From: Diadema setosum | Lineage: Eukaryota; Echinodermata; Echinoidea; Diadematoida; Diadematidae | DNA length: 64,000 bases | Direction of reading: 5' to 3' | NCBI RefSeq assembly: GCF_964275005.1 | Contig: NW_027307663.1 | Span: 186,001 to 250,000, forward strand | Part shown: positions 4,920 through 64,000 of the stretch, piece by piece | How the letters are laid out: each line of letters begins with the position of its first letter | Position numbering within the stretch: position 1 is the first letter of the stretch | Notes under the pieces: generated by a model | Seen by the model: only the letters and a program-made list of their open reading frames with translations | What the model was told of the DNA's origin: nothing | Database searches by the model: none | Made by a program: the position numbers and the translations under genes

Positions 4920-5190
4920 CCCCCCCCCCCAAATTAGGGGTTAAACAAATCATTAATTACACGAAAATGTTATATATATATATATATAGGGGTATCACAA
5001 AATGCTCTACTAATGTTCCTACACTCCTGTGCTACATACTCTCTCTAAAAAAAAATTGAGTGAAAATATTCACTCTTAAAGGAGTGAATACAAAAAATAG
5101 TGAATTTAGAGTGAAATTGGAGTGAATTTTGAGTGAAAATGTTCATTTTCACTAATTTTGGAGTGACCTCAGGGATCACTCCTAAATCTT
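4920..5190. repeat. C-run, (TA)n and GAGTGAAT-rich segment
   Basis: This holds a run of about 13 C at about 4919, a (TA)n tract near 4971-4987, and at 5053-5180 a cluster of GAGTGAAT/ATTCACTC motifs in both orientations that can pair locally. Nothing is coding here. Confidence 0.6.
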
Positions 5191-5544
5191 TGAACAATGT
5201 AATGAAATATTTTACCAGAGCCTACTGATGTCTGCCGATACATCTAGCTATAGTTTGTTTTTTGCGTTTTGTATTTTTACTTCTATCATGCAGGCCTTGT
5301 GAGAAAGATATAGGCTCCTACGAAACCTGAATGTGAGAAAATAACATAGAACAGGTGAAAAATTAGCGGTTCGCTTCGACAATGTCTCTTTCACTTCTTT
5401 ACACTAAACAGTTCAAAAAATGAAAAACAATGACAATATACTAGCCTGGAAGTGAGCGGAATTCGTTTGTGTAAGAGTGTGTATGTGAGAGTAAATGTTG
5501 TATATCTGCGTATAGAAGTATATATTTATACCAAAAGTGGGTTC

Positions 5545-5548
5545 GTGC

Positions 5549-5580
<32 letters not shown>

Positions 5581-5598
5581 GTATGTTTGTGTGTGTGA
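5545..5598 (+). repeat. (GT)n microsatellite
   Basis: A GTGTGTGT tract with few interruptions lies in the middle of the foldback element. The valine/cysteine and histidine/threonine frames over it are not genes. Confidence 0.9.
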
Positions 5599-5919
5599 TA
5601 ACTTCATTGGGCGAAACAACTTATAGGATTATACTGTTTAAGGGCTATGCAGCATTGTTGAAACCCCCTTCAGTAATAATAATAATAATGATAATTTCCC
5701 ATAGGCCTATACTAGGCTCTTTTTTAGCTGGTTTATTATTCCTCTGAACAGACAGATTACGCCACTGCACTTGAATCAAAATCAGAATAATGAGAGTGCT
5801 GTCATCTTTTTAAAACATAATTCAATAAATATTCTTCAAATCTGCAATTTGGATTTGATAATTTGATAAATACAGTTTGCTCTGGCTAAAGGTCATTATT
5901 CAAAACCTCTTCATACGTT

Positions 5920-6066
5920 TACCTCTGACGAAATCGCTCTCATTACTTCTGACATTTTACCTCTGCCATTTTTTCTTCTGCCATTTTTACCTCTGCCATT
6001 TTTGCCTCTGCCATTTCTACCTCTGCCATTTTACTATGACATTTTTACCTCTGTCATTTTTACCTC
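5920..6066 (-). repeat. 15-bp tandem array, right arm (inverted)
   Basis: About nine units of TTTACCTCTGCCATT form the reverse complement of the array at 4155-4403. Together they form the outer arms of the foldback element. The right arm is shorter, so the arrays have changed length independently. Confidence 0.88.
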
Positions 6067-6930
6067 ACAATTAATCATGTATTTGTAGCCTGTTTGAAAA
6101 ATTCCAGGATATTCTTGTAAATTCCGGGAGTTTTTAGTGTCGATTTCAGGAGGACTGACCTTGAAAAGTGGAAGCACTGATGATATGAAGCAATAAGACA
6201 GACGCAGGATCTTGCCTGCTTTTGATGAGCAACTGAAACTCTGGGCCTAACTTCTTTTAGTGGCGAGTATTATGCCTAAATTAAAGTGCTTATTAATGAA
6301 GAAACTTGATTTATTTACGGTGCATATGTAATTCTAGATTTGATAAAGCAATCTAGAAATTCAACAGCAAAAAAAAAAAAAAAACAAAAAAACAAAAACG
6401 CCGCAAACATGTTAAAAGAACTAATGTGAGTCCTCCGCATAGCCGCCATACAGCCTACACACAGCGCCCGTGCACACATGATTTCGTCGAGCTCTAGACC
6501 CTTTTTATCGACTTTGTCAGACTGGCAAAAGATCGAGAAGTTTAACTCGAAGTTTTGCCAGTGTGACCGCAAACTTTCCACGTAACTTTCCGCCAAACTT
6601 CTCGATCTGTTTGCGGGCTATGTCTCCGAAGCGCAAGGCCATTGTCATGTACAAACGTGCATTGTTATGTCATAATCACTAGCCACTGGACGGCGTACTC
6701 TTGCTTGCGCGCGTACCAGTGGCCCAGTCTGACCGCGCCTAAGCGTGCACTCCATATAAGGAAAAATTGACCTAACAAGATGGCGACGCAACACGGTAAA
6801 TTTGGCTGCACGGTCTCGTGTATGTTGGGAATAGGGACACGCATTCCACTATGTTTTAGTTCGGTGGAAAACACGTACATTAGGGTGTAGTACGCAATGG
6901 AGAGGAACGTCCGCCATTTTAGTAAGCAAG

Positions 6931-9502
6931 TGCCGTTGATCGAGCAACACAGGCGAAGAGGGCCTACAATGCTGCTCGGTGATAAAGTGCGCTCTCTCTC
7001 CATGCTTCTTTTTTTATTTTTTTTTCTCTTGAAGCCTGGCAATTACCTTCTGGACCCATAGTCCAATCCCAAAATAATTGTTAACTTGGTGCCTTTAGGC
7101 TTTAGTGAAGTTTGCATGAAAAGGTGATAAATTTCTGCATGTACATGTATGTACCTTCACTGGCTTTGGACACACAATTTTGCTTGCTTTATAATAAAGT
7201 GTACGTCAGTCATATAATTTTCATTATTTTCACATTTGATTTCAAATTACAACAGATTTTATAGGTCTGATGATGTGATGTGTGGCAGTATGAATGATAC
7301 AGTGTATAAATCACTAATATTATCAGTGAACAGATGTAGTGTAAGTTCAGGACCTTGAAGACCTTGAGTTTCATCGTTGACTTTCATGGTTCCTCGAAAC
7401 TCGCATCTTATCTACAGTAGTTTTTACATTAATGCTTCATGACTGCATGCAACCAGTAGGACTTACAGTGCTCCAATTTGAAAGAAGGTGCATATGTGTT
7501 GACAAGTTACATACAGTAATGTATGACAGAACATCCAGGTTTTATTTGAATGCGTACACATTATGAGTTCATTTTTTTTCTGATGCTGTTCTCGATATCA
7601 TGCCCATTCCAAGTATTTCCATTCCTTTTTGATGTATATCTTAATGGTGTTAAACTTCTCAGCATTTCTGTGTTGAGATCGGGATGAAAGAAAATGTATT
7701 TTCAAAACCAGTTTGAATCAATTTATTAAAAGTAACAAGTGTATGTACCTGACTTTTACTTTTACTTTTGCAATCCAATTGATTTCTTGAAATTTTTCTG
7801 ATGGATTTTGTTGAAGTGTGTGTGTGTGTGTGTGTGTGTTGTGTGTGTGTGTGTGTGTGTACATGTATGTGTGTGCATGCATGCATGTGAGTGTGTGTGT
7901 GTGTTTCCCTAACTTGTTAGGGTATCGGCATTCAACTTTTTTTCCTGGGAGCAGGGTCAATTACAAATCTCTTGCATGTTTCATGATCCAGGGTAATCTA
8001 AGAAAATGAACCAGTAACTCTTCTACAAATAGCACAACACCCCCTCCCAACTACTTGGCTTGGCCAGGGTGGAGTGAGAGGGTGGGGTGAGTTTCCAGAA
8101 GCAGGACAACCTTGCGAGCTGCCTAGCTGGTAAGAAAAAAAAAATTAAAATGGTCGCAAGCAGAGAACAGGTCATAAAATGGTCCAACAATGTTAACTCG
8201 GGGGGGGGGGGGGGGGCGGGTCTTTATTTGTAGTGAGAATTCATTAAAATAGTGGAACAAAGTGATTTATGTATTTATTGGGGGGCAGTTCCCCCCCCCC
8301 CCCAATGACACAAGTTTTATTCATACTGTTAAGTTGGTAAAACTTTAACTAGCAATTTATTAGTGAGAAATAGGGTACAAGACGTGATGTGACTGTCTTC
8401 AAAATTCACCATGTTGCACACTGCAAAACGAATCTGCATACAGTGCATATTATACATTGTATGTGGATCAAGAAGCAATGCAAAAATATATTTGGGACTG
8501 TGCAACTTAAACTAACCTGTATATCAATTGTGCCAACAACAAATATTATAAGGTTGAAGACGTTATCTATTGCGGTATATGGTATTTATAATAGATATTA
8601 TGTAATAAGAATTAACTGAACTTGACATTTTCATACAGTATGTGCGTAAATCTTAAAACAGGACTTTCATACTGGAAAAAGAAACATTTATGCAATTCAT
8701 AGGGCAAAGTCAACATACTGTACTAGTAAATATTATCTTGATGTTGTTACTGTACTTATACTGTTATCCTCCATGTTCAAACAGATTTGTTTTTAGATTT
8801 CCCATGCACAATATGGAGATGTCAATGATATTACAGACTTCAGAAACAAGGTATACATTGCATTGATATTACATGCAACTTCATTACTTGACTGTGGAGC
8901 AACATGTAAGGATGTACATTTTGGGTCTCAATTTCAATATCCTTACAGTCCAAAAACAATTACAAATCGAGAAGTTTCTTTCAATCTTTTTCCATCAAGG
9001 GAAAACGTGGACATTGGGTAAATGTAAACAAAAAAAAAAGAAACAAACTGAACGAACATAATGTACACAATATTTGTTGCGTCATGTTGAAAAGGTGCAG
9101 GAAAAAATAACTGCACAGTGAAAATTGGTGAGTGTTTGCACAACAAATGTTATTTTTCACACATACAGTGGAAACTTCCAAGCTATTAGGCAATCTTGAC
9201 GCGAGGAATACAACTGTTGCAGAGGCAGGCATGTAGTCTCTCACAAACTCTTGAATATCTATGTTATAAGAGGGATAAATGTCAATGTCATCTCTGCATA
9301 CACATGAAGCTTGTAACCGTTCGAGGTTTATCAGCACACATAAATACACCTGTCTGTATAATCAGCCATTACTATAACCCTCAATATGTGAAAGACATTT
9401 TTACATATCAACCTTTGCCCTCAGAAGAAGTGGCATACATCGAAAATTTACATCTGTACAAATATTTTCAGATTCATGGCAAGATAGACTGACGCAACAG
9501 AG
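6931..9502. other. no gene seen; microsatellites and G/C runs
   Basis: This would be the 3' flank of the P-type transposase gene inside the element. It holds (GT)n at 7818-7905, a G18 run at about 8201-8218, a snap-back ATTGGGGGG...CCCCCCAAT at about 8277-8305 and plain AT-rich DNA. No exon or RNA gene is supported. Confidence 0.6.
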
Positions 9503-11805
9503 TTATTGTAGTTTTACTTGTGTGACACTTTTTGTAGTTTCCTGCATTTCCTTTTGATAGTAATTTCTTGAAGTTTTCTGTTCTTGAATTTCAGAGCGTA
9601 ACTGCACACGCACATTTACAAACACAGTTACGATTCTGGACTTAACTTTTTCATGACATGTAGCAAGTGCCTTGCAGGAATCAAGCTCACACATACTTTG
9701 CCTAAGGAGATGGCAGATGTTTTCTCTTGTCATCTTGGCATCACCGAACTCTGTGCGAAATACTTCTTCACATTGAGAACAGAAAGCAACAAACTCATCT
9801 GAAGGTACCTTAAGAGCACCAAAGTCCGACTTGGAAGTGTCATATGCCTTATTATGAATGAAGAGAAGGCACGGGTCATTCAGCTCAGGATCACTTGCTA
9901 GCAGAGCTGATCTACACACGTGACATGATGAAAGCAGTTCATGTCCACTAAGAACTCTGTGACACAGATAACCGGCAATGTACTGCAAGGTATTCTGTTC
10001 TGGTAGATCAAGCTGAACATTAAGGGCACCAATGTTTCTTTTTGGACATGATATGCTGGAAGTCTGTGGCATACAAATCCGTTTCCTGCTTGTCAAGTTC
10101 TGAAGTGTTAGTACAAATTTATCTGAGTCGGATGAGCAATTGGCTCCACTTGCTGGCTTAAGGAGTTCGGCTACCATGACCATTCTCAGTGCACAACGGA
10201 ACTCTTTGGAAGAGGGATTATCCCTGCAGCCACCTTTCCTCCGCACAACAGAGAATAAGTTCTCAGCGATGTCCTGGTTGAGGCGAGAAGTGAACAGGTA
10301 CTTCACTCCCTCTTCTACCTTTAGATGCTCCCACAACTGTGTTACACAGGAAATAGCAAGTTGCCATCCCTTGATGAATAGGACATTTCTTGATTCCAGC
10401 ACCTTCAGATTTGCGAGCACCGGAACACAGGTTTTGAAATATTCCATGTGCTCCGATTTGGATGAGATGGGTCGTTTCATTTTCTTTGTATCCTTGAAGA
10501 ATCTGCTATTCAGGCCATCAAACAGGCTGTCTATGGTTTCAATCATGGACCTACAACGAACTCGGCGGTGTGAACTGCTTCAGCAGGAAGTTTTCCTAAT
10601 GCTGAGTAAGTGTATATACCAGCTGCAACGGTACGGCTGATAACTTGTGCAGCCTTATTCACTCTCATCTTTGAGAAGCTTGTTAAATCAAAGTGTCCTT
10701 TAGTTAGTTTAGTTGCCTTTCGGATTGGTAATTGTGAATCAAAATCATAAAATTGTCGAATGTAAGACCACTTGATGTGCTTCTTAACGCCTTCTGTGTC
10801 GATGCAGAATACATACTTCTCTAGATTGGAACGAGTATTTTTCAAAAGGTGGGGTGGTTTATGCAAGCAGAAGACCTTGTTACTTCCATGATAAAAGAAA
10901 GGTTTCTCTTCAGTGACATTGAGACGTTTATATAAAGCAACATTGCTTGAACCCTGGTCACAAACTGCCGCTTTGGGTACAAGTCCTATTTCAGACACCT
11001 TGCTGAGACACTCTTTCAAAAGTGATTCAAGTTTGCCTGTTGGGGTTACATCTTTAGACAAGAAGTAGCCAATTGGCTGCTTCCATTTCCCGATTAGTCC
11101 TCGAACCATAGTGCATGGTTTGCCGGTTTCTCTGTTCTCCCCAACGATCCAAAATCTTCGAACCCCTCAACAGCATCCTCTGTAATGTTGTAAGAAAAGC
11201 CTGCTCTGAGGCTCATTTCGTCAAATGTTACGACACACAGTTTGTCCTTATCACTCATGCAAGCCACTTTGTCCTTCAACAAATCAAACACTCTCTGTGG
11301 AAATCCAGGCCGAACCTTTATGTTGCTGAGCCAGCGGCGTAGTGACGGAACAGAAGGGAGTGTAAAAACCCGTTGACAGAAAATGTATGCCTTTGGACTC
11401 TGATGGTACAGCGACAGGGCAAGAACTTTGTCATCATTTATGACCACCTCCTTCCCTTTGCTTTACGACGGTGGGTCGAATTACGAAGCTGTGAAGCAAA
11501 GAATGACATGGCAGGCTCATCAAGGAATTGTTTTGCACTTTTAATCAATTCCTCTACAGATTTTGATTCTTTTGCTGCTGTTTCCATGGATTTTTTGAGT
11601 GATGCCACCTTTTGTTTCAAACGAAATGTTTTCTGTCGTTCTTTTCTGAGAGGTTTACTCTGTTTCCTGGCTGAAAGTTGCTCGAACGGTTCAGGCGATG
11701 GCGTGAATGATGAAGGAGCGGGTGTAGAATTTCCTGGGCTTTCAGAACTGGGGCTGTCCACCGTTGGTTTACTGTATGCATGTTCAGTCAGGACAGAGTA
11801 GGTCA
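9503..11805 (-). CDS. THAP9/P-element-like transposase, exon 3 (catalytic part, three frameshifts)
   Basis: This is the main exon of a cut-and-paste P-superfamily transposase. It starts at 11805 after a pyrimidine tract and CACTGTAG, in phase with exon 2. In order it holds a basic coiled-coil with KTFRLKQKVASLKKSM, then GRRWS, a helix-turn-helix-like ALSLYHQSPKAY...SLRRWL, the RNase H-like core VTFDEMSLRAGFSYN (first Asp) and AVCDQGSSNVA (second Asp), a HLLKNTRSNL block in the GTP-binding region, LNQDIAENLFSVVRRKGG (Asp and Glu of the last catalytic motif) and the YIAGYLC...CHVC C-terminal domain. With exons 1-2 the product is about 890 residues, close to human THAP9 (about 900). Apparent 1-nt-class frameshifts lie near 11440, 11103 and 10545. 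All catalytic acids are kept. It is a recent pseudogene or carries assembly indels. Confidence 0.9.
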
Positions 11806-11903
11806 CTACAGTGAACATAAGAAAAAAAAAAAAAACAATCATTAATCCATGTGTCAATTTTTCATTCATCACAATACTGAATCACTTTTGGAAATTGAAC
11901 TCT

Positions 11904-12431
11904 AGGGGCGGTATTCTAAAAAATTGTTTTATCTCTAAAATGCTTTATCTTCTGCCTTTAAACAAAATCAGTATTCTGAAAACTGTGTTACCTTTTGTTA
12001 TAACTGTTGTTTTATCTTTCGTCCCATCCTCCTGTCTCTTCCCGTGCTTAAATTTTGAGTAATATATTACCATCCACACTCTAATGCGTAAACTGGCAGA
12101 AACATGGATATAGTGCAGCAAGACAGAATATTAGATGCGTACATTAGTTAAACATGCCCGCAAGTAGATACGCGCAATGCGAAGACATATATATATGCTT
12201 TGGCACAAGCGATGTTTTCATCGGTTGACTTACAAACATGAATCAATTGTGAGTCGTGGACTCGTTAGCTCCCAACAAATGGGTATGGCAAAGATAAAAT
12301 TAGGGGCGGTCTTCCAGAGGTAAACAATTTTCAGAAGACCAATTTAAAACAATTTTAGCGATGTTTTATCTCAGGAAGATAAAACAAAAGTTAGAACAAA
12401 CGACAAACAATTTTAAGAATAACACCCTCAA
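11904..12431. repeat. MITE-like inverted repeats in intron 2
   Basis: The left end GGGGCGGTATTCTAAAAAAT and the inverted right end (reads GGGTGTTATTCTTAAAATTG) share a GGGYGKTATTCT start. An internal third copy, GGGGCGGTCTTCC, begins at about 12303. It may be two MITE fragments rather than one. No clear target duplication. It lies in the intron between exons 3 and 2. Confidence 0.5.
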
Positions 12432-12842
12432 TCAATGTTTTAAAATGGGTACATGTATTTTCTTACCATTTTTCAGCCTATATAGAATAAATACATTATG
12501 ATTATACTTCTTTTTTTATATTTTTATTTCATCTCATTTGAAGTTTAAAATACAGCCTGGGGCAGGTGGTAATTCATAATGGTGACTTTGTAATTTCGTA
12601 TATCTGTGTGCAAGCGCCATTCTACTCATATATGAAAATTATTTGGTAATGTAATTGTGCTTTTAAAGATAAGTTGGATAAAGTACTTTTCAGTTACTTC
12701 AGTGGGCTAGTCCCTATTCAACTATATGTAATTATTCCATGTAAATGAACAGAAGGCTCCATTCAACAACATTAAGAAGTGCTCTTTGGCAAACAAGATA
12801 AAGAAGAAGTTGCCTCGATGCAGAATGGGCATGTACACTTAC

Positions 12843-13108
12843 CTTTTCTTTGCTTCACTGTTGTATGAGAGTCATCATCAGTGCACTTCCTTTTGATAGG
12901 ACGGCGTGGTGTGGACTGAGGTTTGGGGGGATTGGGAACTTGAAAGACAGTCGGACCTGCATTCCACTTTAGCCTGTTTTTAATCTGACGGTTAGAGAAC
13001 TGGTCATCTGTGAAGTGCTCTGAACATAAGCGGCAGTTGTTTGAGAGGTAAAGAGTCGTCCGATTAAGGAGGTCTTCGCGTCTGGTGTTTTGTACCCATC
13101 GCTGACAT
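12843..13108 (-). CDS. THAP9/P-element-like transposase, exon 2 (second half of THAP domain)
   Basis: The acceptor CTTTTACTCCAG precedes 13108 and the donor AAAAG/GTAAGTG follows 12843, both consensus. The exon gives CQRWVQNTRRED, then CRLCSEHFTDDQF (the C-x2-H half of the C2CH zinc site) and the end of the fold, WNAGPTVFQVP. A Pro/basic linker with a KRKC nuclear-localisation-like patch follows. It enters in phase 2 and leaves in phase 1, and both match the neighbouring exons. Translated past its donor the frame soon loses similarity, so this is a real splice rather than a gap. Confidence 0.9.
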
Positions 13109-13439
13109 CTGGAGTAAAAGATAAATAGAGGAAAGAAGTAAATTTCCATTAAAGTAAGACATGGAAGTTCTCCATCTCCCTTTCCTTCCTATCTGACCTC
13201 TCTTTCTCTAATACTTAAGGCTTTAAAGCAAGTTAATCACAGACAATCACCTTTTTTAAGTAAATGAGTTGAATTTAAATGAGGATTTGTTTTTCTGACA
13301 TAATCTGAAAAAAAGTGCGCATGCGTGGCATCGGGCAGCATGGAGTTTTGATTTCTCGTGCCGCAAATTTTCTTACATTACTCTTTTTACTGGTTTTTCT
13401 GATCATTTGCTGATTATTTTCAACATACCGGTGTTCTGA

Positions 13440-14416
13440 TGTCTCCTGAACTCATGCCTTCATGGATTCAGCTTATTTTTCACCCTACTGAGTGTTTTTT
13501 AACAGCTAAAGATGCAGATCGAGACTCCAACTCTCCCGTTTTCGACGGGAGATCTCCCATTTTTGCACAATCTCCCGTTCTCCCGTTTGAGATTTGATTT
13601 CTCCCGCCCTGGCTCTGTGTCTCCCGGTGGAAAGGATTTCTTACTTATTTCTATCGTATGTTGAAAAAATAAACCTTAGATAGCACCAGAGAACATCTAG
13701 AATCCTAAGGAACTTCGCGCTTCGCACACATCAACTTGGTGTCTCCCGTTTGCTAGGAGTTTCGGGCGGGAGAATCTCCAGATCAGAAGGTGCTTGGGGT
13801 TGGAGTCTCTGAAGATGTCTCCTCCACGGCGTTTGCTGTAGTACCTACCGTCCTGTATTGTACTACGCGTGCACTACTACTACTACAGCCATACTGCATG
13901 CTCGCATGCTATCACCAGCGTCACGTTCTGTATGTATAGCCGATTCTGTCAATGAGTAACTGAGTGATGAATGACGAGTGACCTTATCACTGATTTTTAG
14001 TACAGTTGCTTACCTCGAATTTGCATGTGCATGATTGCTTCATTACCTGCAACTTACATCATTGTCTATAAAATACATCATGATGTATGATGAACTCATG
14101 GATTCAGCCTGAGTGTTTGTAACATCTAAAGATGTCTCCCCCACGGCATTTGCTGTAGTACCTACCGTCCTGTATTGTACTACACGTGTACTACACTAGT
14201 ACTACCTCTATGTACTAGGCCTATACAGTCATGCTGCATGCTTACATGCTCTCACCAGCGTCAACGTACTGTATGTATAGCCAATTCCGACAATGAGTAA
14301 CTGAGTGACGAGTGACCTTATCACTGATTTTTTACTACAGTTGCTTGCCTCGAATTTGCATGTGCATGATTGCTTCACTATCTGCAACGTACAACATTGT
14401 CTATAGTACATCATGA
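13440..14416 (+). repeat. tandem duplication of a ~330-bp block upstream of the 2A LINE
   Basis: Unit 1 (about 13440-14088, minus a 303-bp MITE insertion) and unit 2 (about 14089-14416) share long stretches: GAACTCATGGATTCAGC, TTGCTGTAGTACCTACCGTC, GAGTGACCTTATCACTGATT and CTCGAATTTGCATGTGCATG. They are in the same orientation as the LINE and directly precede it. They may be 5' promoter monomers of the LINE. Confidence 0.8.
13515..13811. mobile_element. 297-bp TIR element inserted in unit 1 of the duplication
   Basis: The left end is CAGATCGAGACTCCAAC and the right end inverted is CAGAGACTCCAACC. AAGATG lies at 13509-13514 and 13812-13817. The second tandem unit has the empty site CTAAAGATGTCTCC. 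Inside it are repeated CTCCCG/CGGGAG motifs that can form several small hairpins. Family not clear; a hAT-like origin with an 8-bp imperfect duplication (TAAAGATG/TGAAGATG) is possible. Confidence 0.8.
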
Positions 14417-14669
14417 AGTTTCACTGTGACTGTGTTCTACTATGACTGCTTCACAAATGCTCTAGTTAGTTTTGCTACTGTCAGTGCAGGAGTTCAACAG
14501 GTTACTGCTCTTGCATGTGCATGACTCTCACCCATAGCACATCCTCCTGGCACATATTAATATTAATGTTGTTCTTTTGATTACAATACACGAGTGACTG
14601 TGTCAGCATTGATTAGACGTGTTCATAACTGTTCAACATGTTCTTAGACTTAGACTTTCTATCATCATT

Positions 14670-17600
14670 ATGAACATGCACGCACAAGTGACTATACTCA
14701 AGAGTGCATACCTCCTGATTGCCTTGAACTATTTCACCCAGAGTAATCTCTTGCTTTCTGGTGACATAGAATGCAACCCTGGCCCTCGCAAGCCCAAGTA
14801 CCCCTGTGGGGAGTGTAATAAAGCTTGTACCAAATACAAAGGTGCAAAAGCCAGTATCCTGTGCGAGTCGTGTAACACATGGTTTATACTCGGAGTGTGT
14901 GGGCCTGTCAGATTCTGCGTTAGATAACCTCGGAAGAAGTGATCTTCCATGGGAGTGCTGTCACTGTGGATTACCTAACTTTTCCTCAGGGCTCTTTAAC
15001 TCTACAGAACTTGATGGATCTAGCACTATGGACACTTCTAACACTTCTCACACTCACCCCTCAACAAGCTCCACAAGTTCAAGTCAACTCGGTTCCCCTC
15101 TCGCTAAATCATCTCCGAGCTCCAAGACCAAATCTCATCAATCCTTTCAGAACCTCCGCTTTCTCGAGGTTAATTTCCAGAGCATTTTCGGGAAGCGTGA
15201 AGAATTCTGGAGTGTTTTGGATGCAGTCAAGCCTGATGTTGTTTTTGGTTGCGAAACGTGGCTTAAACCAGGGATTTCAAATGGAGAAATCTTCCCTCCT
15301 GGATTTGATGTTTATCGCATTGATCGCCAGGATGGTTACGGCGGTGCGCTACTTGCTGTCCATAGTAGCTTGAATAACCACCAGATCTCAATCAAGACTG
15401 AAGCTGAGCTAGTTGCTGCTAAGATTGTCAACAACAAACAGTCTATCGTTGTTGCCTCTTTCTACAGACCAACTAACAATAATGTTGACTACATGGTAGA
15501 TCTGTGCAGTACCATCAGCCAGCATTGCCAGGACAATCCAGGTGCCGCAGTTTGGTTTGCTGGAGACATAAATCTGCCAGATATCAACTGGGAAACCTCC
15601 AGCATCATCTCGCATCAGTACCGGCGTACCATCAATGAGACTTTCTTGTATCTACTGGAGTCGGCAGGTCTTGAGCAAATGGCTGATTTTCCAACCAGAG
15701 GGGATAACACACTTGACATCATCTTGACAAACAGGCCTTCCCTCACAAATAGATGTTCAGGTCTTCCTGCTCTAAGTGATCATGATCTTGTCTTCATGGA
15801 TGCTAACGTACAAGCCAGCAGAAGAAAGCCCATTCGACGCAAGATTCTTCTATGGAATAAGACCGATTTTGACGTCATCCGCTCAAGGGTACAACAGATG
15901 TCAACCAGCTATACCTCCAGTTTCAATACTTCTACATCAGTCGATGACCTTGCCGACGCTCTGCAGCAGGAACTTGATTTGATCATCAGTGACTGTGTTC
16001 CTTCCAAGATGACCTCAACTAGAGTCAATCAACCGTGGTTTAATTCCAAAACCAAACGCATCCTGAGACGCAAACGTCGTGCCTTCAAAAAGGCCCGCCA
16101 GACGAATATGACCAGGGACTGGGACCGCTTCAAGCTCCTCAAGAAAGAAGCCCAAAAAATGTGCCGTAAATCCTACAACAATTATGTGCACGACATCATC
16201 CACAGTGTACCAGCTGGCTGCAGAAACAAGAAGTTGGGTGCTTTAGAGAAAGCTAAGCGTTGCGACCACATAGGTGTTGCTCCACTGAAAGATGGAGGTT
16301 TCCTTCATTCGGACCCAAGATCTAAAGCCAACATCTTGAACAGGCAATTTTCATCTGTCTTTTCAATTGATGATGGAGCCCCTATCCCAGACCTTGAGGA
16401 CAAGGAGTACCCCACTATGGATAACATCCAAGTCAGTGAAAACGGAGTGATCAAGCTTTTGAAAAATCTCAAGTCCTTCACTGCCTCAGGTCCTGATGGG
16501 ATACCAACTATGCTTCTGAAACAAGCAGCCGTGGATATTGCACCAGCAGTGACTTTACTTTCCCAAGCTTCTATCAGAAAGGAAAAGTGCCTTCACAGTG
16601 GAAGAAGGCTCAGATCGTTCCATTGTTCAAGAAAGGAAGTCGCTCTGATGCTGCAAACTACAGACCCATTTCTCTAACATCCGTACTGTGTAACCTGTGT
16701 GAACACATAATTCACTGTGCTGTAATCCGTCACCTGACTGACAACAACATCATTTCGGATGCCCAGCATGGTTTCCGCAAACTGAGATCGTGCGAAACAC
16801 AACTCATCTGCATGCTGGATGACCTTGCCAAGGGTTTAGACATGAAGTCACAAATTGATGTGGTCCTTCTCGATTATGAGAAGGCTTTCGATAAAGTCTC
16901 CCATCGACATCTCATGGAGAAGGTCCAGCACTATGGAATCTGTGGTAAAACAGCAGATTGGATATTTGATTTCCTCCACTCACGCACACAATCTGTTCTT
17001 GTTGATGGCTAGGAGAGCAGGGAATCCCCTGTTACATCGGGAGTCCCACAAGGAAGTGTCTTGGGCCCCCTGCTCTTCCTCATCTTCATCAACGACCTGC
17101 CGGACTGCATCTCAAGTTCATCTGTCAGACTATACGCTGATGATAGTGTGGTTTACAGGCACATTTCTTCACCTGCTGACTCAACCCGCTTGCAGAGGGA
17201 CTTAGATGCAGTTCAAGAATGGGAAGCGAAATGGCTGATGCGATTTAATGCTACCAAGAGTCAGGTCTTGCAGGTCACCAACAAGAGGAATCCCGTTCCT
17301 GCCTCCTACACCATTCAAGACCATGTACTACAAGTTGTCCGCTCAACCAAATACCTGGGTGTCCATATCGATTCAAGATTGAATTTCAACAATCATGTGG
17401 ATACCGTCACCAAGAAAGCCAATGGTACTCGAGCCTTCTTCTCACGCAACCTACGTCATAGCAGCCAAAAAGTCAAAGAAACTGTCTACACAACACTCAT
17501 CCGACCAACTGTCGAATACGCAGCGACTTCATGGGATCCGCACACACAACGGAACATACACAAGCTTGAGCAGGTTCAGAGAAGTGCAGCTCGATTTGTC

Positions 17601-17938
17601 ACGGGCGACTTCGAAAGATCTAGCAGCGTCACAGCCATGCTGGATCATCTCAAGTGGCATCCACTGCAGGAACGTCGCTCCCAAAATCGTCTGTTGATGA
17701 TGTATAAGATCAGACATCACTTGGTTGACATCCATTGGCAGACTTACCTGACCCAGCTCCAACATCTACCAGAGGACACTGTTCCCGATTCACTATCCCC
17801 CACACCAGTACTATAGCGTATGCCAACTCATTCTTCCCACGCACCATCCGGGACTGGAACAGCCTGCCTGTTGATCCTGCCACATACCCATCCCTCATCG
17901 CCTTCAAAACTGCGCTGAGGGAACTCTGTAGGATGTAA
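14670..17938 (+). pseudogene. LINE polyprotein: 2A-PHD-endonuclease-reverse transcriptase
   Basis: The first ATG that fits is at 14670. Residues 1-39 are a hydrophobic leader running into LLLSGDIECNPGP, the 2A ribosome-skipping motif. A Cys-rich PHD finger follows (CGECNKACTKYKG, CESCNTWF, SECVGL, WECCHC), then a Ser-rich linker, and from about 15160 the endonuclease (FLEVNFQSI, CETWLKPG, FYRPT, GDINLPDINW, LSDHDLV). The reverse transcriptase has DAANYRPISLTS, LLDYEKAFDKVSH, SGVPQGSVLGPLLF and RLYADDSVVY. The end is FPRTIRDWNSLP. Breaks: a frameshift within the PHD near 14885, a frameshift near 16565, an in-frame TAG at 17010-17012 (probably CAG before), and a frameshift near 17750. The coding order is otherwise complete. 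Confidence 0.9.
14757..14786 (+). other. 2A translational-recoding site (SGDIECNPGP)
   Basis: The codons give S-G-D-I-E-C-N-P-G-P and fit the D(V/I)ExNPGP 2A consensus. In known 2A peptides the ribosome fails to join the final Gly and Pro and continues, releasing the upstream product. The break would fall between 14783 and 14784. Here it would separate a 38-residue leader from the PHD-endonuclease-RT body. Confidence 0.92.
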
Positions 17939-18815
17939 CTCTTCATCCAGAGATTTTTTACTCGCACCTGTAAATATTTTTCACCTGATTTCAAATTTCT
18001 GTTGCCCCGGTGCAGCGTATGCGCATGTTCTCGCAGTGCGTTCATCCTCGACCATTTGAGGGCAGCACTTTATCGGAAGAAGAAGAAGAAGAATCACATG
18101 GTCTAGACCAATACAAGGTAGCTTACACTGCACAAAGTGCACATATTCCATTTAGGGTTATGTATCGGCTCAATGAACATGAACATTCAATGACAATTGT
18201 ACACATAACATCGACAGTTTATTAGACCAAGCTGAAAGTCTTTAAGACTAGAGTAGACTATACACTTTTCGACGTCAACCAGTTCTCGGCAGTCATGCTC
18301 TTTACTATTTTAAACTTTACAGACTATTGAACATATAAAGTTCAACTACTGCGTGAAAATCCTTGCACGCAGATATTTCAGTCAGTCCATCGACAGTGCA
18401 CAAAGATTGAGTGTGAAGAAAACAATTAGGATATTTCTTCGCCATCTGAGCCGAGTCTGACTTCAAATAAGTTTTGCCACTGTCACTTGTCTGTTGTCAG
18501 ACAGTGTGAGTGTCACTAATTTCAGTTGAGGGAATTTGACTTTGAATTTATTAATTCACCAGATCATTAAATAAATGAACTTACACTACATGACTGAGCT
18601 ACATATACGTGTGTACCTGAACCTGTTTTTGACACTTGACAGAATTTTACTTCTTAATTTCTTCACCTTTTTACCTGCTCAGACAGTGCAGCTACCTTCT
18701 TTCAACATACAAACATCACTATTATGCATATGGGGGACTACAATGAGTGCTAGCGTTTCGTTGACATCCCAGTCTATTTATAAATATAAAACATGATATA
18801 TAGAGGTCCACATAC

Positions 18816-18916
18816 CTTTCTTTGTTTTTCGGGAACCTGAAAAATGACAAATCTGGCCTTTTGGACTGTCGATTTGAACAGTTTATAGCTGAACAATGAG
18901 CACATGATCGCGACAT
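18816..18916 (-). CDS. THAP9/P-element-like transposase, exon 1 (first half of THAP domain)
   Basis: The exon starts at an ATG at 18916-18914 and encodes MSRSC...CSAINCSNR...FFRFPKNKE, the N-terminal half of a THAP zinc finger: the C-x4-C pair at residues 8 and 13 and the invariant Pro of FRFP at 29. The donor GAAAG/GTATGTGG follows 18816. Joining to exon 2 completes an Arg codon and gives FPKNKERCQRWV with the invariant Trp. THAP domains bind DNA in a sequence-specific way and in P transposase recognise subterminal sites. The exon lies 5.7 kb from exon 2 because of the LINE. Confidence 0.88.
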
Positions 18917-18974
18917 CTTTGAAGTCTTCGACGTACCAGAAGAGAATTAGGTCTTCATGTAGACAGAATTCGTA

Positions 18975-19098
18975 AACACTAAACTTGCTTACTAAAATGG
19001 CGACCGCCCGCACCCATGACGTACTACGCTTTTTTGGGAGAGTGATCTATCTTGCGCCGCTTCGCGGCGCTCTATCATCTTTGGTCATGATCACGTGA
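18975..19098 (-). repeat. right terminal module of the P-type element
   Basis: On the minus strand it reads CATGACCAAAGATGATAGAG, the hairpin GCGCCGC-GAA-GCGGCGC, GTAGTACGTCATGG and CGCCATTTTAGTAAGCAAGT. It is the inverted partner of the split module at 2943-6930. It ends about 60 bp upstream of the exon 1 start codon, so it should overlap the promoter. CGCCATTTT is a YY1-like core. Confidence 0.7.
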
Positions 19099-19193
19099 TG
19101 TCGTCAGTCATTATGTAAATGGGCATCCGTCCCGCTTCATTATGAATATTCATCAGGCAGTAAAATACCGTACTAGAATGTAACGGGCCCGCC

Positions 19194-19340
19194 CGTTGCA
19201 TAAAAGTTACAATTATGGTAACTTTGCCATCCAATGGTAACTACCATAGCAACAATACTCAACAGCCAATCACAATCAAGAATTCCATGGAAGTTACCAT
19301 TGGATGGCAAAGTTACCATAATAGTAACTTTTATGCAACG
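19194..19340. mobile_element. 147-bp palindromic MITE
   Basis: The arms start with CGTTGCATAAAAGTTAC and continue with ATGGTAACTTTGCCATCCAA. They are nearly perfect over about 50 bp, with a central loop near 19250-19290. No clear target duplication was found. Confidence 0.8.
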
Positions 19341-19383
19341 CTCAGCTCCCGAAGGGAATCACATATTTATGTTCGATACCAAC

Positions 19384-20106
19384 CAAAGAGATTTTTCTCC
19401 TCCCCACCACTAGAGGGCGGACTCTACAATGGAGTCAGTGATTTCATGGGGGCTGCCCACTGAACTAAAACATAATGGAATGCGTGTCCCTATTCCCAAC
19501 ATACACGAGACCGTGCAGCCAAATTACCGTGTTGCGTCGCCATCTTGTTCGGTCAATTTTTCCTTATATGGAGTGCACGCTTAGGCGCGGTCAGACTGGG
19601 CCACTTGTACGCGCGCAAGCAAGAGTACGCCGTCCAGTGGCTAGTGATTATGATGTAACAATGCACGTTTGTACATGATAATGGTCTTGCGCTTCGGAGA
19701 CACAGTCCGCACTCCGTATAAGGAAAAATGGACCTAACAAAATGGCGGTGGTAGCAAGTTTTGGTGGCTGCGTATTTCCTGGGTGAACACGCATTCCACT
19801 ATGTGTTAGTTCGGTGGGGCTGCCCATAGGGCTGCCATTGTACCACTTAGTAATGGCGGACTTTGCGTACTAAGTATACATTTCTACAGCGCGTATTACG
19901 CGAACTTCTGAACTTTTTACGCAAGTACGCACTTGATTTGGCTGCTCCTCGGTTGCTCGTTTGCTAGCGTGTTAGCACAAGGGGTGAGCCTACCGCCTCG
20001 TTGGTCATCCAGTGCGGCCCCGTCCGGGCCCCGTGCGGTCACAAAACAATAGTACAGGGCGTATGAAGAGTCCGCACTCTAGCAGTCACTGGGGAAAATC
20101 TCTTTG
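19384..20106. mobile_element. hAT-type MITE, third copy, interrupted
   Basis: This is the same family as 2966-3700 (CAAAGAGATTTTTCTCC left end, CACTGGGGAAAATCTCTTTG right end). The 8-bp flanks are ATACCAAC and ACACCAAC (7 of 8). Without the nested element the copy is about 356 bp. It is inserted beside the AT-rich array. Confidence 0.88.
19458..19816. mobile_element. 359-bp short relative of the TU-like foldback element
   Basis: The ends CACTGAACTAAAACATAATG and, inverted, CACCGAACTAACACATAGTG match the 3895-6866 element. The right half also carries the subterminal CGTATTTCCTGGGTGAACAC block. The 8-bp duplication GGGCTGCC (19450-19457, 19817-19824) is exact. It lacks the 15-bp arrays and the middle, and reads as two terminal domains joined directly. 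Confidence 0.9.
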
Positions 20107-20136
20107 ACACCAACTAACTAAAAAACTATTTCATCA

Positions 20137-20735
20137 AGTAAATATTCATTCAACAAAAATATATTCGACAAAATATATATTTGATAAAAGATATATTCAA
20201 CAAAATATGTATTTGACAAAAATATATTCAAACAAAATATATATTTGACAAAAAATATATAGGTATGACGAAAATATATTCGACAAAATACATATTTGAC
20301 AAAAAATATATATTTCACCAAAGTACATTTGACAAAAAATATCTTTGACCAAAATATATTCGACAAAATATACATTTGACCAAAAAATATATTAAATATA
20401 TTTCACCAAAAATATATTTGACACAAAACATATTGTGTCAAACATATTTTGTGTCAAATATATTTTTGGTGAAATATTATATATATATATATATATATCT
20501 TTGGTCAAATGTATATTTTGTCAAATATGTTTTTGGTCAAATATATTTTTTGTCAAATATATTTTGGTGAAATATATATTTCTTGCCAAATATGTAGTTT
20601 GACCCAAAATATATTTGACAAAAAATATATTTGACCAAAAAATATATCTGACCAAAATATATTCGACAAAATATATATATATCTATATATATTTCACCAA
20701 AAATGTTTTAGACCCAAAATATATTTGACAAAAAG
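20137..20735. repeat. AT-rich ATATTTGACAAAA array with an orientation switch
   Basis: Degenerate 13-18-bp units of ATATTTGACAAAA run forward to about 20430, as the reverse complement (TTTTTGTCAAATAT) to about 20590, then forward again to 20735. A (TA)n tract lies at 20478-20498. The repeats explain the long Phe/Tyr/Ile frames here; none is a gene. Confidence 0.88.
20398..20477. repeat. 31-bp perfect palindrome at the centre of the AT array
   Basis: Arm 20398-20428 (ATATTTCACCAAAAATATAT...ACACAAAA) is exactly complementary to 20447-20477, with an 18-bp spacer. It can extrude as a cruciform and marks the orientation switch of the array. Confidence 0.9.
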
Positions 20736-21415
20736 TGTTTTACATACATGGCGTTCCATACTTACGAAAAGAAAGGTAAGCACTATTTGGGCACCATAGA
20801 GCTCTATTATACGTAATAGAGCTCTATTATACGTACTAGAGTTCGGACTCGTCATATACATACGCGCGCACGTTAAGGCTTTGTGATCGCATGGAGCACG
20901 TTCCGCCATTACTAAGAGTGGCAAAACTTCAGTGCAGTGCGAATCGCTTGTATTAGCAATGTACTGTTGCGTTGACAACCGGGGTTGACAACGCCGGATT
21001 GACTCCTTTGCAAGACGTACACGCGATGAAAATCAACGATTTGAGTGATAATTTGATAATCTCATTCACAAAACCACGCGTTACGCAATATAATTGCTAT
21101 TTTTAACGTAAAATAAAGCTAAATAATTATCTCCTCAGTAGTGTATCAATTTTCATACGCTGAGCGCTGATTATTCATCGCGGACATTCAAGTGCAGCTA
21201 CGCATGCATAGCTCTGATTGATCGAGTGGTGAACGCGACTTGGAGATAACCCCGGGGGCGGGAATCAGTGGCATAGCTAGCATTTCTCCAGTAGGGGGCA
21301 CTGTGATGGGGGCCTCGCAATTTTGTAGGGGGCACCCTGAACTGCTACTGTGATTATTTTTTTATTCAGCATATTTTTTTCCAGGGGTGGGGTGGGAGGC
21401 ACATTGTGGCATACA

Positions 21416-22003
21416 TTTTTTTTTTTTTTTTTTGGGCGGGGGGGGGCAGGTCTCCAATACCTCCACTGGGGACACTGCCATTACAAGTGTGTAAAAGGGG
21501 CTGTTTTTCACGGACGGGCGATGTACGCGCGTATGTGAAAAGGGTAGCAAAATCGCTGAAATCAGAGGAAAAGGCCATACTTTTACAGAAGTAGCTAGGC
21601 TACTTGAAAAAGGTAGCTTCAGGGTGAATTTGGTGTATTTTGAGATCAAAGGATCATTACTTGTACACACACACGCGCGCGCGCGCGCGCGCGCGCACGG
21701 GTGACACAAACACACACACACATACCTAACAAACATAAATACACATACACATCCATATAGTACATCCATAACAAGCACAAGTAGGCCTACATACACACAT
21801 ACACATCCATAACACATCCATAACAAACACAAGTAGGCCTACACACACACACATACACATCCATAACAAACACAAATACACACACACACACACACACACA
21901 CTTACTGAAGGCCCCACCTCAACCTTAATTAGGAATACAATAATTTGAATGGGACATAGTGAATATGCCTGCACACACAAACACACACACACACACACAC
22001 ACA
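21416..22003. repeat. T18/G-run junction, (CG)n, and CA-rich minisatellite
   Basis: A T-run (21416-21433) passes directly into a G-rich run. (CA)n/(CG)n lies at 21667-21697, and at 21720-21905 there is a loose minisatellite built on ATACACATCCATAACAAACA and AAGTAGGCCTACA. (CA)n follows at 21973-22003. No gene. Confidence 0.85.
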
Positions 22004-22279
22004 CAATCTCTCTCAAGTCTCTCTCTCACACAAACAAAGTCCTGAACATATCACACAAATGAATACATGTACTACAGAGCATATATTCTATGCATTTAAT
22101 CTTGTCATGGGATATCAATTCTCAAATTATTCGACATAAATCATAAATGGTTGTTAGAAAATCTGTGATACAAAATACAAAATTATTTAAAGCCCATGTA
22201 CGCACTGGCAATATCGTCTGCATGCACAATTTTGGCAGATGCAGTGCGCGTGCATATGCACTTGCCACTCTCACTTGCC

Positions 22280-22397
22280 ACTCTTAGTAATGGCGGCGAG
22301 CTCTCCATGCGATCACAGCGATTTAAATGAGTACGCCCACTCTTAGTAATGGCGGCGAGCTCTCCATGCGATCACAGCGATTTAAATGAGTACGCCC
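22280..22397 (+). repeat. 59-bp exact tandem duplication
   Basis: Two adjacent units begin ACTCTTAGTAATGGCGGCGA and end GAGTACGCCC with no difference seen, which suggests a recent event. They lie in the right arm of the inverted repeat above. Confidence 0.92.
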
Positions 22398-22773
22398 TCT
22401 AGCGATATGTAAATACAGCTCTATGTTGGGCACCCGTCCCGCTTGCGAATATTTTTTTTTTTCGTACATGTACATGGAAACGGTACAGGACATGAATTAT
22501 TCATAATTTGAGCTGAAATTTTGAAGTGCGCAAGCGCGTGGATTTTAGTCAAATGCGTACGCGGGCGCACGGCGCAAGTTTCTTATAGAGACCTACGCTA
22601 TCGACTTCTCTTTGGCGCTTACGCTTTGGCCCACTTTCCCGAGTCCGAAGAAGTCCAATCAGTGGTCCGATCACAGTTCGGCTCATGAATCGGCTGAGGG
22701 GGATGACAACTTTAGCAAACTTCTTTTGTGATGTCACAATAACAAGCACATATATGCACGCACCCTGACAATA

Positions 22774-24025
22774 GGGACTTTTCGATTTGCACGTTGAGCC
22801 AGGCGTCACCCTGTTATGACGTAGTTTTTACGTACTGCGCATGCGCGAGTGTCGACCCTCGGCTCATCGCACAAATTTCCAAGGCGTTAAAGGGTGTGTA
22901 CAGTTCTGGTCGAGGTGAAGATTTAGCTTTTAACGTTTTGTGAGATATTCAGAAACCACTCTATGAGATGTGAAAGAGCATGCAGTTCCAAGGGGTATCA
23001 AAAGTTTATTCGATGAAAATCGGTTTTGAAATGGCTGAGATGTCCAAAAACAAGGTGAAACAAAGAGATACTAATAAAGTTGGGGCATGTCGCCTTTTAT
23101 TATTAGCACTTTTTGGGATATCTCAGCCATTTGAAAACCAATTTTCATCAAATAAATGTTGAATCTTTCTTAAAATTACATGCTCTTTCATATTTCATAA
23201 GAGGCTTTTCATTATCTCACTTAGAAATGTTCAAAACATGAATCCTTACCTCAACCAGTACTGTACAGTCCCTTTAACCCCGGTTATCACCGTCCACCCA
23301 AATCGGTTGCGCCGCGCTCAACCCACCTTGCTATGACGTCACACTCCTCTCGGGTATCGTGCGAAAGAGCACGATGACTCTCGGGAAATCCGTGCTCAGT
23401 TTCCCAGTTCACCAGTTTTCCTTTTTCTTTCGAGAGAATATTTATATTCTAATTACATGAAAGCTTATGATCTTGATACGTCACAGCAGCAGCGCTGACA
23501 TACGAACTACAGCCTCTGGTACCCACTTTATTTGTCCGTTTTCACTGTTTCGCACTTTGCGACTGCCTACCGTAGTCCCACACATGCATTTACACGTAAT
23601 GCTTTACGCAAACAGATCTTGGTGCTTTTGGCCTAACCCCGTCGCGGGGCGCTGTTTACGGTACGTATTTGTCCGTATGGGGTCGCTGCTGCGGTTACTT
23701 TTGGCCTAGCTGATAGTGCAGCAGTGCATTTGCCTAGTAGTCTTACCATGCATCATGTTTTAAAATCCACATAATTCCTCCCAGAATACGCATCTAGTCA
23801 AAGACAAAATAAATATTACAAGTTCAGAAACGAGTCACAAATTCCGCATACTAGTATATGCACGCAAGGCAAAGGTTGCCTCCTGCACACGCCACGCACG
23901 AGACGTGACGCCGGCGCCCGAAATCGAAATGTGTTTTAGCAGCGGGTCAACGTACAGACGTGACGCCTTGACGTACGGTTGCGCTCGGCGGCACGTCCTT
24001 CTCGATCACCCAATCGAAAACTCCC
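22774..24025. mobile_element. 1.25-kb TIR element with TA target duplication
   Basis: The left end is GGGACTTTTCGATTTGCACG and the right end inverted is GGGAGTTTTCGATTGGGTGA. TA lies at 22772-22773 and 24026-24027. The GGGAS-TTT start and TA sites recall the foldback MITE at 2957-3845. It contains no coding sequence and hosts a TTAA-flanked MITE. Confidence 0.65.
22891..23273. mobile_element. 383-bp MITE with TTAA target duplication (piggyBac/Kolobok-like)
   Basis: TTAA flanks both ends (22887-22890, 23274-23277). The ends read AGGGTGTGTACAGTTCTGGT and, inverted, AGGGACTGTACAGTACTGGT, continuing YGAGGTRARGATT. Secondary inverted blocks (GAAAATCGGTTTTGAAATGG and its complement) lie inside, so the whole element can fold back. 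A TTAA site fits piggyBac-like or Kolobok MITEs. Confidence 0.85.
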
Positions 24026-48022: not shown

Positions 48023-49690
48023 GAAGTTTGAAGTTTGAAGTTTTTATTAGCAACAATATTTGAACATGTACATTTCAATTATTATACAATTGTATTTACA
48101 TACATGTATGGAAAAAATACTTATCTACTCCTTTACAATAACATGATTAAATGAAAACATTTGAGATTTAAATGTGATACATGTAGCAGTAATTCTACAA
48201 AGTTGTTGTTGTTAACAAGGAAACCAAAAGTTAGCAAACGTGCTAGTCGAGATTGGTCACCTTGATCTTCATACTAAAAGCTAAACGCAAACGAGAAATT
48301 ATTACATGGTTGGTTGAAACGGCAGTTGATATTTAAATACAATGTACATCATATATTTTATAACATAGAAAACTAATTATACTTGATACAGTATATAATA
48401 TCTATTAGAGAAGGAAATCTGCAAGGCATTTACGAAATGTGGATCTTTTGCTTTGTTCACGCATTTCTCGTGGCAATGTGTTCCAAAGTTTTGGACCTAA
48501 GTAAGAAATCGCAAATTGTCCCTGTGTGGTTCTAAATTTTGGTAAGTACAACATTCTTTTTTCATTTGTTCTTGTCCTGTAAGTATGTTGCACAATTTGG
48601 CAATAGTCATACAAAGGGTGCGGAATAGTTCCATTGCACAGATCGTACATAAATGTTAAAACTGAGAACTTATGTAACCTAACAACATCTAGAAGTTTGA
48701 ATCGTTAGAACAATGGTTCTGAATGTGTTCGTAAAGTCGAAAATGTTATAGCTCTCAGAGCCATTTTTTGAGAAATATGTATACAATTTAAATGAGATTT
48801 ATAAGTACTGGCCCATACCTCAGTGTGGTTGTATAAAAGATTTATACAAAAGCACAAGAATGCGCTGCGGAACATACTGTCTTAATTTATACAATACACC
48901 TACTTTCCTTCGAACACATTTATTTACCAATTGAATGTGAGGTTTCCAAGTGAGATGACAATCAATCTGAGTTCCGATAAAGGATGCAACACTCACTTCA
49001 TCAATGTCTGTGTCAGATAGTTTTATTGCACCCCTCATCGCAACTAACTGGCGTTTTCTTCTGATTACCATATAATTTGTTTTCTTTAAATTGATTGTAA
49101 TTTTATTGGCATTACACCATGTTTGAACTCTGTGCAGGTATTCATTTACTTCATTCACATCTATTTCTTTTTGTCGAGCAGCATAAGTATGAAAAATATT
49201 TGAATCGTCGGCAAACAATCTGAATTCAAAGAAAGAGCAAGAGCGTGGCAAATCATTTATAAATATCAAAAAGAGTGTAGGCCCCAAAACTGACCCTTGC
49301 GGGACACCACAAGTTACAGTCTTCGGTGTCGAGACCATTCCTCTATAAGATAGCAGCTGAGATCTGTTGGACAGATAATCAGCAAACCATTGAAGTGGAA
49401 TTCCACGAATACCATAATGAGCCAGTTTACATAGAAGAATATCATGATTTATCGTATCAAAAGCCTTTTTAAAATCTATAAAGATACCAAGTGTTACATT
49501 TCCTTCAGCAAGTGATGTCATTAGTGTATTTACAAGATCAATTAAAGACAATTTCGTACTGTATCTTTTACGAAAGCCATACTGGTGTTTATAAAAATTA
49601 TCATTGGACTCATAAAAATCAACCAGTCTATCATTTACAATTTTCTCTAAAACCTTTCCAATTATTGGAAAATAGTCTATACCTACTAAA
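48023..49690 (-). mobile_element. 5'-truncated LINE (CR1/L2-like)
   Basis: It ends (minus strand) in AACTTCAAACTTCAAACTTC after a 3' UTR of about 380 bp. Coding similarity stops at about 49680, inside the reverse transcriptase fingers, so the 5' end was lost on insertion, the usual LINE outcome. It abuts the 3' side of the next LINE. Confidence 0.85.
48405..49690 (-). pseudogene. LINE reverse transcriptase, C-terminal part
   Basis: The order is GKVLEKIVNDRLVDF, KHQYGFRKRYST, IFIDFKKAFDTINHD (catalytic Asp), TCGVPQGSVLGPTLF and RLFADDSNIF (FADD box), then the thumb and, at 48650-48405, the typical end YLGPKLWNTLPREMREQSK. It is close in style to the 59.4-60.9 kb reverse transcriptase. There is a frameshift near 48838 after YKSFI and an in-frame stop near 48706; otherwise the protein reads through. 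Confidence 0.88.
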
Positions 49691-49734
49691 CATAAATACA
49701 GTGATATACAAATTGGCAAGCAAGGTTAACTAAT

Positions 49735-63979: not shown

Positions 63980-64000
63980 TAGCTGCGTGAATGTCTTTCC

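Follow-up and report, generated by a model that had tools for sequence, protein, structure and literature searches.

A probable inactivated P-superfamily transposon with a THAP finger split over two exons in Diadema setosum

The window analysed here is a 64,000-nucleotide stretch of the genome of the sea urchin Diadema setosum (NCBI RefSeq assembly GCF_964275005.1, contig NW_027307663.1; C37:186001-250000), and its part from about 6868 to 19083 is, very probably and as judged from its sequence, one inactivated copy of a cut-and-paste DNA transposon of the P superfamily. This copy spans 12.2 kb, a length that falls to 7.4 kb when the long interspersed nuclear element (LINE) in its first intron is left out. 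An earlier note on this DNA had proposed a P-element/THAP9-like transposase gene, of which the type, the splicing and the split THAP finger are upheld by the sequence while the idea of a functional gene encoding some 890 residues is not.

A transposase gene in three exons

The gene model consists of three exons on the minus strand (Table 1), the last of which starts at 11805 and is preceded by a pyrimidine tract and GTAG. The exon bounds and splice signals given in the earlier note agree with the sequence base by base, and the signals at both joints are identical in the window and in a close copy on contig C8 (see below). Since exon 1 measures 101 nt and exons 1 and 2 together 367 nt, the phases agree at both joints, as had been claimed. 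The idea that joining the first two exons rebuilds a THAP domain is equally sound, the score against Pfam THAP rising from 23.9 bits (exon 1 peptide alone) and 44.2 bits (exon 2 peptide alone) to 70.9 bits for the spliced peptide, which matches the profile over its full length (1-87 of 87) and has the N-terminal C2CH THAP finger expected of the P superfamily. Between 13109 and 20000 the sole THAP match (three minus-strand frames, stops read through) is exon 1 itself, at profile positions 1-30, which in so long a read-through scan is weak (16 bits, E 0.021, below the cut-off of 23.9). In the PDB, the joined finger is related to human THAP1, THAP2 and THAP11.

Matches to Pfam THAP, the Tnp_P_element helix-turn-helix (HTH), the TNP-like RNaseH_N, GBD and RNaseH_C all reach the Pfam cut-offs, and the domains follow one another on the same strand in the order expected; within 11438-11805, the first frame of exon 3, no Pfam family scores above its cut-off. 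For three pieces of exon 3 the best PDB match is the Drosophila P transposase (6p5a), and the alignments place D, D, D and E opposite D230, D303, D528 and E531, of which D230, D303 and E531 are given as the catalytic residues of that enzyme (PMC7776569). An RNase H domain interrupted by a GTP-binding insertion is therefore present with its catalytic D-D-E, although these parts are spread across separate frames of exon 3.

Table 1. Coordinates of the P-like element, of the LINE within it and of the repeat that adjoins it (positions in the window)
Feature	Position	Strand	Description
Exon 1	18816-18916	minus	ATG at 18916, first THAP half; ends in codon 34, phase 2; donor GTATGT
Exon 2	12843-13108	minus	second THAP half and basic linker; acceptor CTCCAG, donor GTAAGT
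Exon 3, frame 1	11438-11805	minus	Lys/Ser-rich linker; stop after first frame break
Exon 3, frame 2	11094-11462	minus	P-transposase HTH and first part of RNase H, residue matching D230
Exon 3, frame 3	10543-11166	minus	remaining N-part of RNase H, residue matching D303, GTP-binding insertion domain
Exon 3, frame 4	9503-10579	minus	C-part of RNase H, residues matching D528 and E531, C-terminal tail
LINE	13306-18093	plus (opposite to gene)	endonuclease and reverse transcriptase, GAA-repeat tail; own frames broken; absent from C8 copy
5' terminal inverted repeat	18983-19083	minus	first bases CAAAGATGATAGAGCGCC; element end at 19083
Remains of 3' terminal region	6868-7084	plus	82% to 3' end of C8 copy (L041 4230-4475)
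High-copy repeat piece	6612-6867	plus	adjoins truncated 3' end; inverted partner 19457-19711 outside 5' end

Terminal repeats and target duplication

Relatives were sought in the whole genome (912.7 Mb, 102 contigs), all search counts being lower bounds. The DNA of exon 3 gave three matches (3 of 3 candidates scored), namely itself, C8 at 96% over about 226 bp and C5 at 65% over about 600 bp, and the DNA from intron 2 to intron 1 gave at least seven (five short pieces in addition to itself and the C8 copy, which matches at 93%). The one close copy found, on C8, is colinear with window 11580-13305 joined directly to 18094-19085, holds window 7183-8370 in inverted orientation (85% identity) and is itself damaged, having lost its start codon and most of exon 3 and acquired single-base gaps in its exons.

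Window and C8 are homologous up to 19085, the last two bases matching through the target sequence, and the opposite end of the C8 copy is the same repeat, inverted. Both C8 ends read CAAAGATGATAGAGCGCCGC inward, with 20 of 20 terminal bases identical and 76% identity over about 115 bp, and the end sequence of the family is CAAAGATGATAGAGCGC. On either side the C8 copy is flanked by GTGAATAC, an 8-bp target-site duplication seen at this one insertion (a 4- or 6-bp duplication, which was the first guess, was dropped once the 8-bp match had been noticed). C8 hence carries both terminal inverted repeats; the window retains just the 5' one complete, since about 48 bp at the outer end of the 3' repeat have given way to part of a high-copy repeat. 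Elsewhere in the window the end motif is absent even with up to 5 of 19 mismatches allowed. Related ends are found on C3 and C16 (76% and 74% identical), and the other ends of these two loci were not found within the 3.1 kb taken for each.

An intact element would be transcribed and spliced as modelled to yield a transposase, the THAP finger of which would bind the element near its ends, and the RNase H domain of which, with its GTP-binding insertion, would presumably have cut and pasted it, leaving the 8-bp target duplication behind.

Probable inactivation of the copy

The LINE that the earlier note had placed in intron 1 is indeed there (4.8 kb), with Pfam Exo_endo_phos_2 and RVT_1 domains over three frames. 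It is an insertion in the window, because the C8 copy runs continuously across 13305/18094, and it accounts for the large distance between exons 1 and 2, intron 1 being about 0.9 kb without it.

A continuous gene of about 890 residues, as had been envisaged, is not what the sequence contains, for exon 3 falls into four overlapping frames with three frame breaks between them, on which the earlier note is silent, and the spliced product stops at 244 residues. All three breaks are bridged in one frame in a relative on C22, L020 (4776/4590, 4590/4227 and 3982/3688, each pair differing by a multiple of three), and both L020 and its neighbour L022 have a frame break of their own elsewhere. At the second break, the window and a relative on C5 (L032, which also has in-frame stops) differ from the C22 copies by unequal lengths, which makes the two lesions look independent; a second break common to window and C5 relative was rejected for this difference in length.

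These breaks might instead be assembly errors in an intact element or gene, an explanation that we consider very unlikely. It would suit the fact that each of the four frames is free of stops up to its break, and small indels are a typical long-read error. The inserted LINE and the missing 3' repeat, however, are independent lesions, and damage is also seen in relatives from this assembly (C8, L032 on C5, L020 and L022), with the unequal lengths at the second break. This last pattern of broken relatives and unequal lengths fits decay, and would also fit an error-prone assembly.

Comparison with the C8 copy bears on whether the coding sequence has been maintained. Identity amounts to 97 of 100 aligned bases in exon 1 and 254 of 265 in exon 2; with the start of exon 3, mismatches are 3/100, 11/265 and 9/226, that is 23/591 or 3.9%, a figure that covers only these parts since most of exon 3 is not comparable. 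The introns differ at 31/902 and 47/1013 positions (78/1915, or 4.1%). With 3.9% against 4.1%, exons and introns have diverged to the same degree in the two copies, giving no sign of codon constraint.

The wording of the earlier note implies another explanation, a host gene of the THAP9 type that has been domesticated and has a long intron. Its domain order and catalytic residues would be those seen here, which are as in P-type transposases, and the window itself yielded no paired repeats in a scan (see below). Such a gene is nevertheless extremely unlikely in view of the three frame breaks, the equal divergence of exons and introns from C8, and the terminal repeats and 8-bp duplication of the C8 copy. 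Of the traits of a THAP9 host gene, neither an intact reading frame under purifying selection nor freedom from flanking terminal repeats is found (the C8 copy has both repeats and the window one). A working gene is not supported, given three frame breaks, exons no better kept than introns and a missing 3' end, and the sequence argues for a degraded mobile element rather than a THAP9-type host gene.

A further alternative is that the locus still yields the 244-residue protein, a THAP finger with linker that could act as a repressor in the manner of truncated Drosophila P-element proteins. As this would require, the reading frame stays open through exons 1 and 2 and into exon 3 as far as the stop at 11438; the lack of codon constraint in the comparison with C8 (3.9% in exons, 4.1% in introns) speaks against it, and we regard it as highly improbable. 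The same low probability attaches to the more specific notion that the protein from the spliced broken copy would bind the ends of related P-like elements and repress them, as an independent parallel to the Drosophila KP repressor, in which case nine P-like matches in long open frames (see below) could be its targets.

Several points weigh against an inactivated P-superfamily copy, which remains our preferred interpretation: (i) errors of assembly could in principle underlie the frame breaks, (ii) the terminal repeats and the duplication come from only one insertion, on C8, which is itself rearranged, and the 8-bp match has no simulated chance level beside it, (iii) the window copy has lost its 3' end and with it one side of any target duplication of its own and (iv) a scan of the window for paired ends with a 7-9-bp duplication (5000-9502 against 18917-24000) gave three low-complexity hits, compared with 0-3 per run in 20 shuffles.

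P-like relatives

With all 39 candidates scored, the protein of 10546-11166 has at least 28 matches at E <=1e-3 in the genome, one of which is itself; nine lie in open frames of 600-925 residues and possibly represent intact families. For THAP, 150 of 221 candidates were scored and gave at least 131 matches. No relative was found among viral contigs when one exon 3 piece (9506-10579) served as the query. Among the closer relatives (L020-L022 on C22, L027 on C1 and L032 on C5), aligned exon 3 pieces of L020, L022, L027 and L032 are 34-80% identical to the window, the highest values being over short stretches, and likeness in DNA is small (129 bp at 74% in L027, in addition to the stretch of C5 given above). 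The P-like relatives on C22, C1 and C5 are families separate from the window element. Further P-like transposases, including those at C10:36435677, C2:19576907 and C6:40661557, are 22-31% identical to the window piece.

The three C22 copies lie within about 150 kb (C22, about 10.73-10.89 Mb), and segmental duplication is likely behind L020 and L022, because these are 99.5% identical over 10 kb.

Where the finger is split was compared in six relatives: in L020, L021 and L022 the two THAP halves join in an open frame, at the codon and in the phase seen in the window, and for L024 no open THAP join was obtained. L027 has a donor at the split position of the window and an acceptor, read by eye, of TTCAG with the phase kept, and in L010, a member of a distant family, THAP is split about seven codons earlier. 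Human THAP1 is described as a three-exon gene whose first intron follows coding base 71 (PMC4049367), which corresponds to codon 24, phase 2, and in an alignment with the joined finger lies about seven codons before the window split. A THAP finger divided over two exons is thus not unusual, being common to three relatives and close to the split of human THAP1. Neither is a P-transposase/THAP gene in this genome surprising, given the accounts of three THAP9-like genes with a P-transposase domain in a sea cucumber genome (PMC13228809) and of THAP genes with P-transposase parts in Hydra (PMC10027918).

Surrounding repeats

The window is dense in mobile elements. The repeat piece at the truncated 3' end and its partner beyond the 5' end form a 256-bp inverted pair, 96% identical. 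They were rejected as long terminal repeats, as this is a high-copy repeat with one arm beyond the 5' end; it has at least 49 genomic matches (40 scored of 584 first-look candidates), 13 of those listed at 100%, the window's own included, and is apparently abundant and young. Five copies on C22 lie about 1.8 kb apart.

At 22883-23281 lies a palindromic repeat of about 395 bp, TTAA-flanked and with AAAGGGTGTG-type ends, which we take to resemble a piggyBac-type miniature inverted-repeat transposable element. It recurs in 8 of 32 loci tested (L009, L020, L022, L024, L025, L026, L031 and, as a 55-bp piece, L028), and as a common end of P-like copies it was discarded, being a dispersed TTAA-flanked repeat. 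One TTAA palindrome is also inserted in the C8 copy, in a TTAA matching window 7081-7084. A short palindromic element (19194-19340; 54-bp arms, 96% complementary) lies about 110 bp outside the 5' end of the transposon, an AT-rich array built from about 36 imperfect copies of a 16-bp unit, with many internal inverted pairs, occupies 20153-20733, and reverse-transcriptase frames of other retroelements are found at 1-1333, 48820-49725, 59273-60949 and 62576-64000, the last with an integrase frame.

Significance

The present analysis adds one family with terminal repeats and an 8-bp target duplication to the P superfamily (no claim being made that this family is unpublished), and it shows that a THAP finger split by an intron is found not only in a host THAP gene but also in a mobile P-like element. 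For genome annotation, it follows that such elements may be mistaken for THAP9 genes unless frame breaks are checked.

Comparison with known P-type systems

The terminal repeats of P elements begin with CA, and the repeats of the window family share this tip. The likeness to the P element of Drosophila melanogaster (PDB 6p5a, 6pe2) extends to the THAP finger, the HTH, the RNase H domain with GTP-binding insertion, the D-D-E residues and the 8-bp duplication, a length stated for P elements and for zebrafish Pdre2 alike (PMC7776569, PMC10983969). Unlike the Drosophila element, for which 2.9 kb is given (PMC7776569), the present one measures about 7.4 kb without the LINE, has an intron inside its THAP finger and has a terminal repeat of about 115 bp (76%, first 20 bases identical).

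Zebrafish Pdre2/THAP9 is similar in being mobile and having a P-type transposase gene, terminal repeats (CATACC..., with a CA tip) and 8-bp duplications (PMC10983969, PMC7776569), whereas its 13-bp terminal and 12-bp subterminal repeats, as described in PMC10983969, differ in sequence from those of the family reported here. In human THAP9, too, a whole P-type transposase comes after a THAP finger; according to the description in PMC7776569 this gene is without flanking terminal repeats or multiple internally deleted copies, unlike the sea urchin family, whose C8 copy bears terminal repeats and whose two close copies are both broken.

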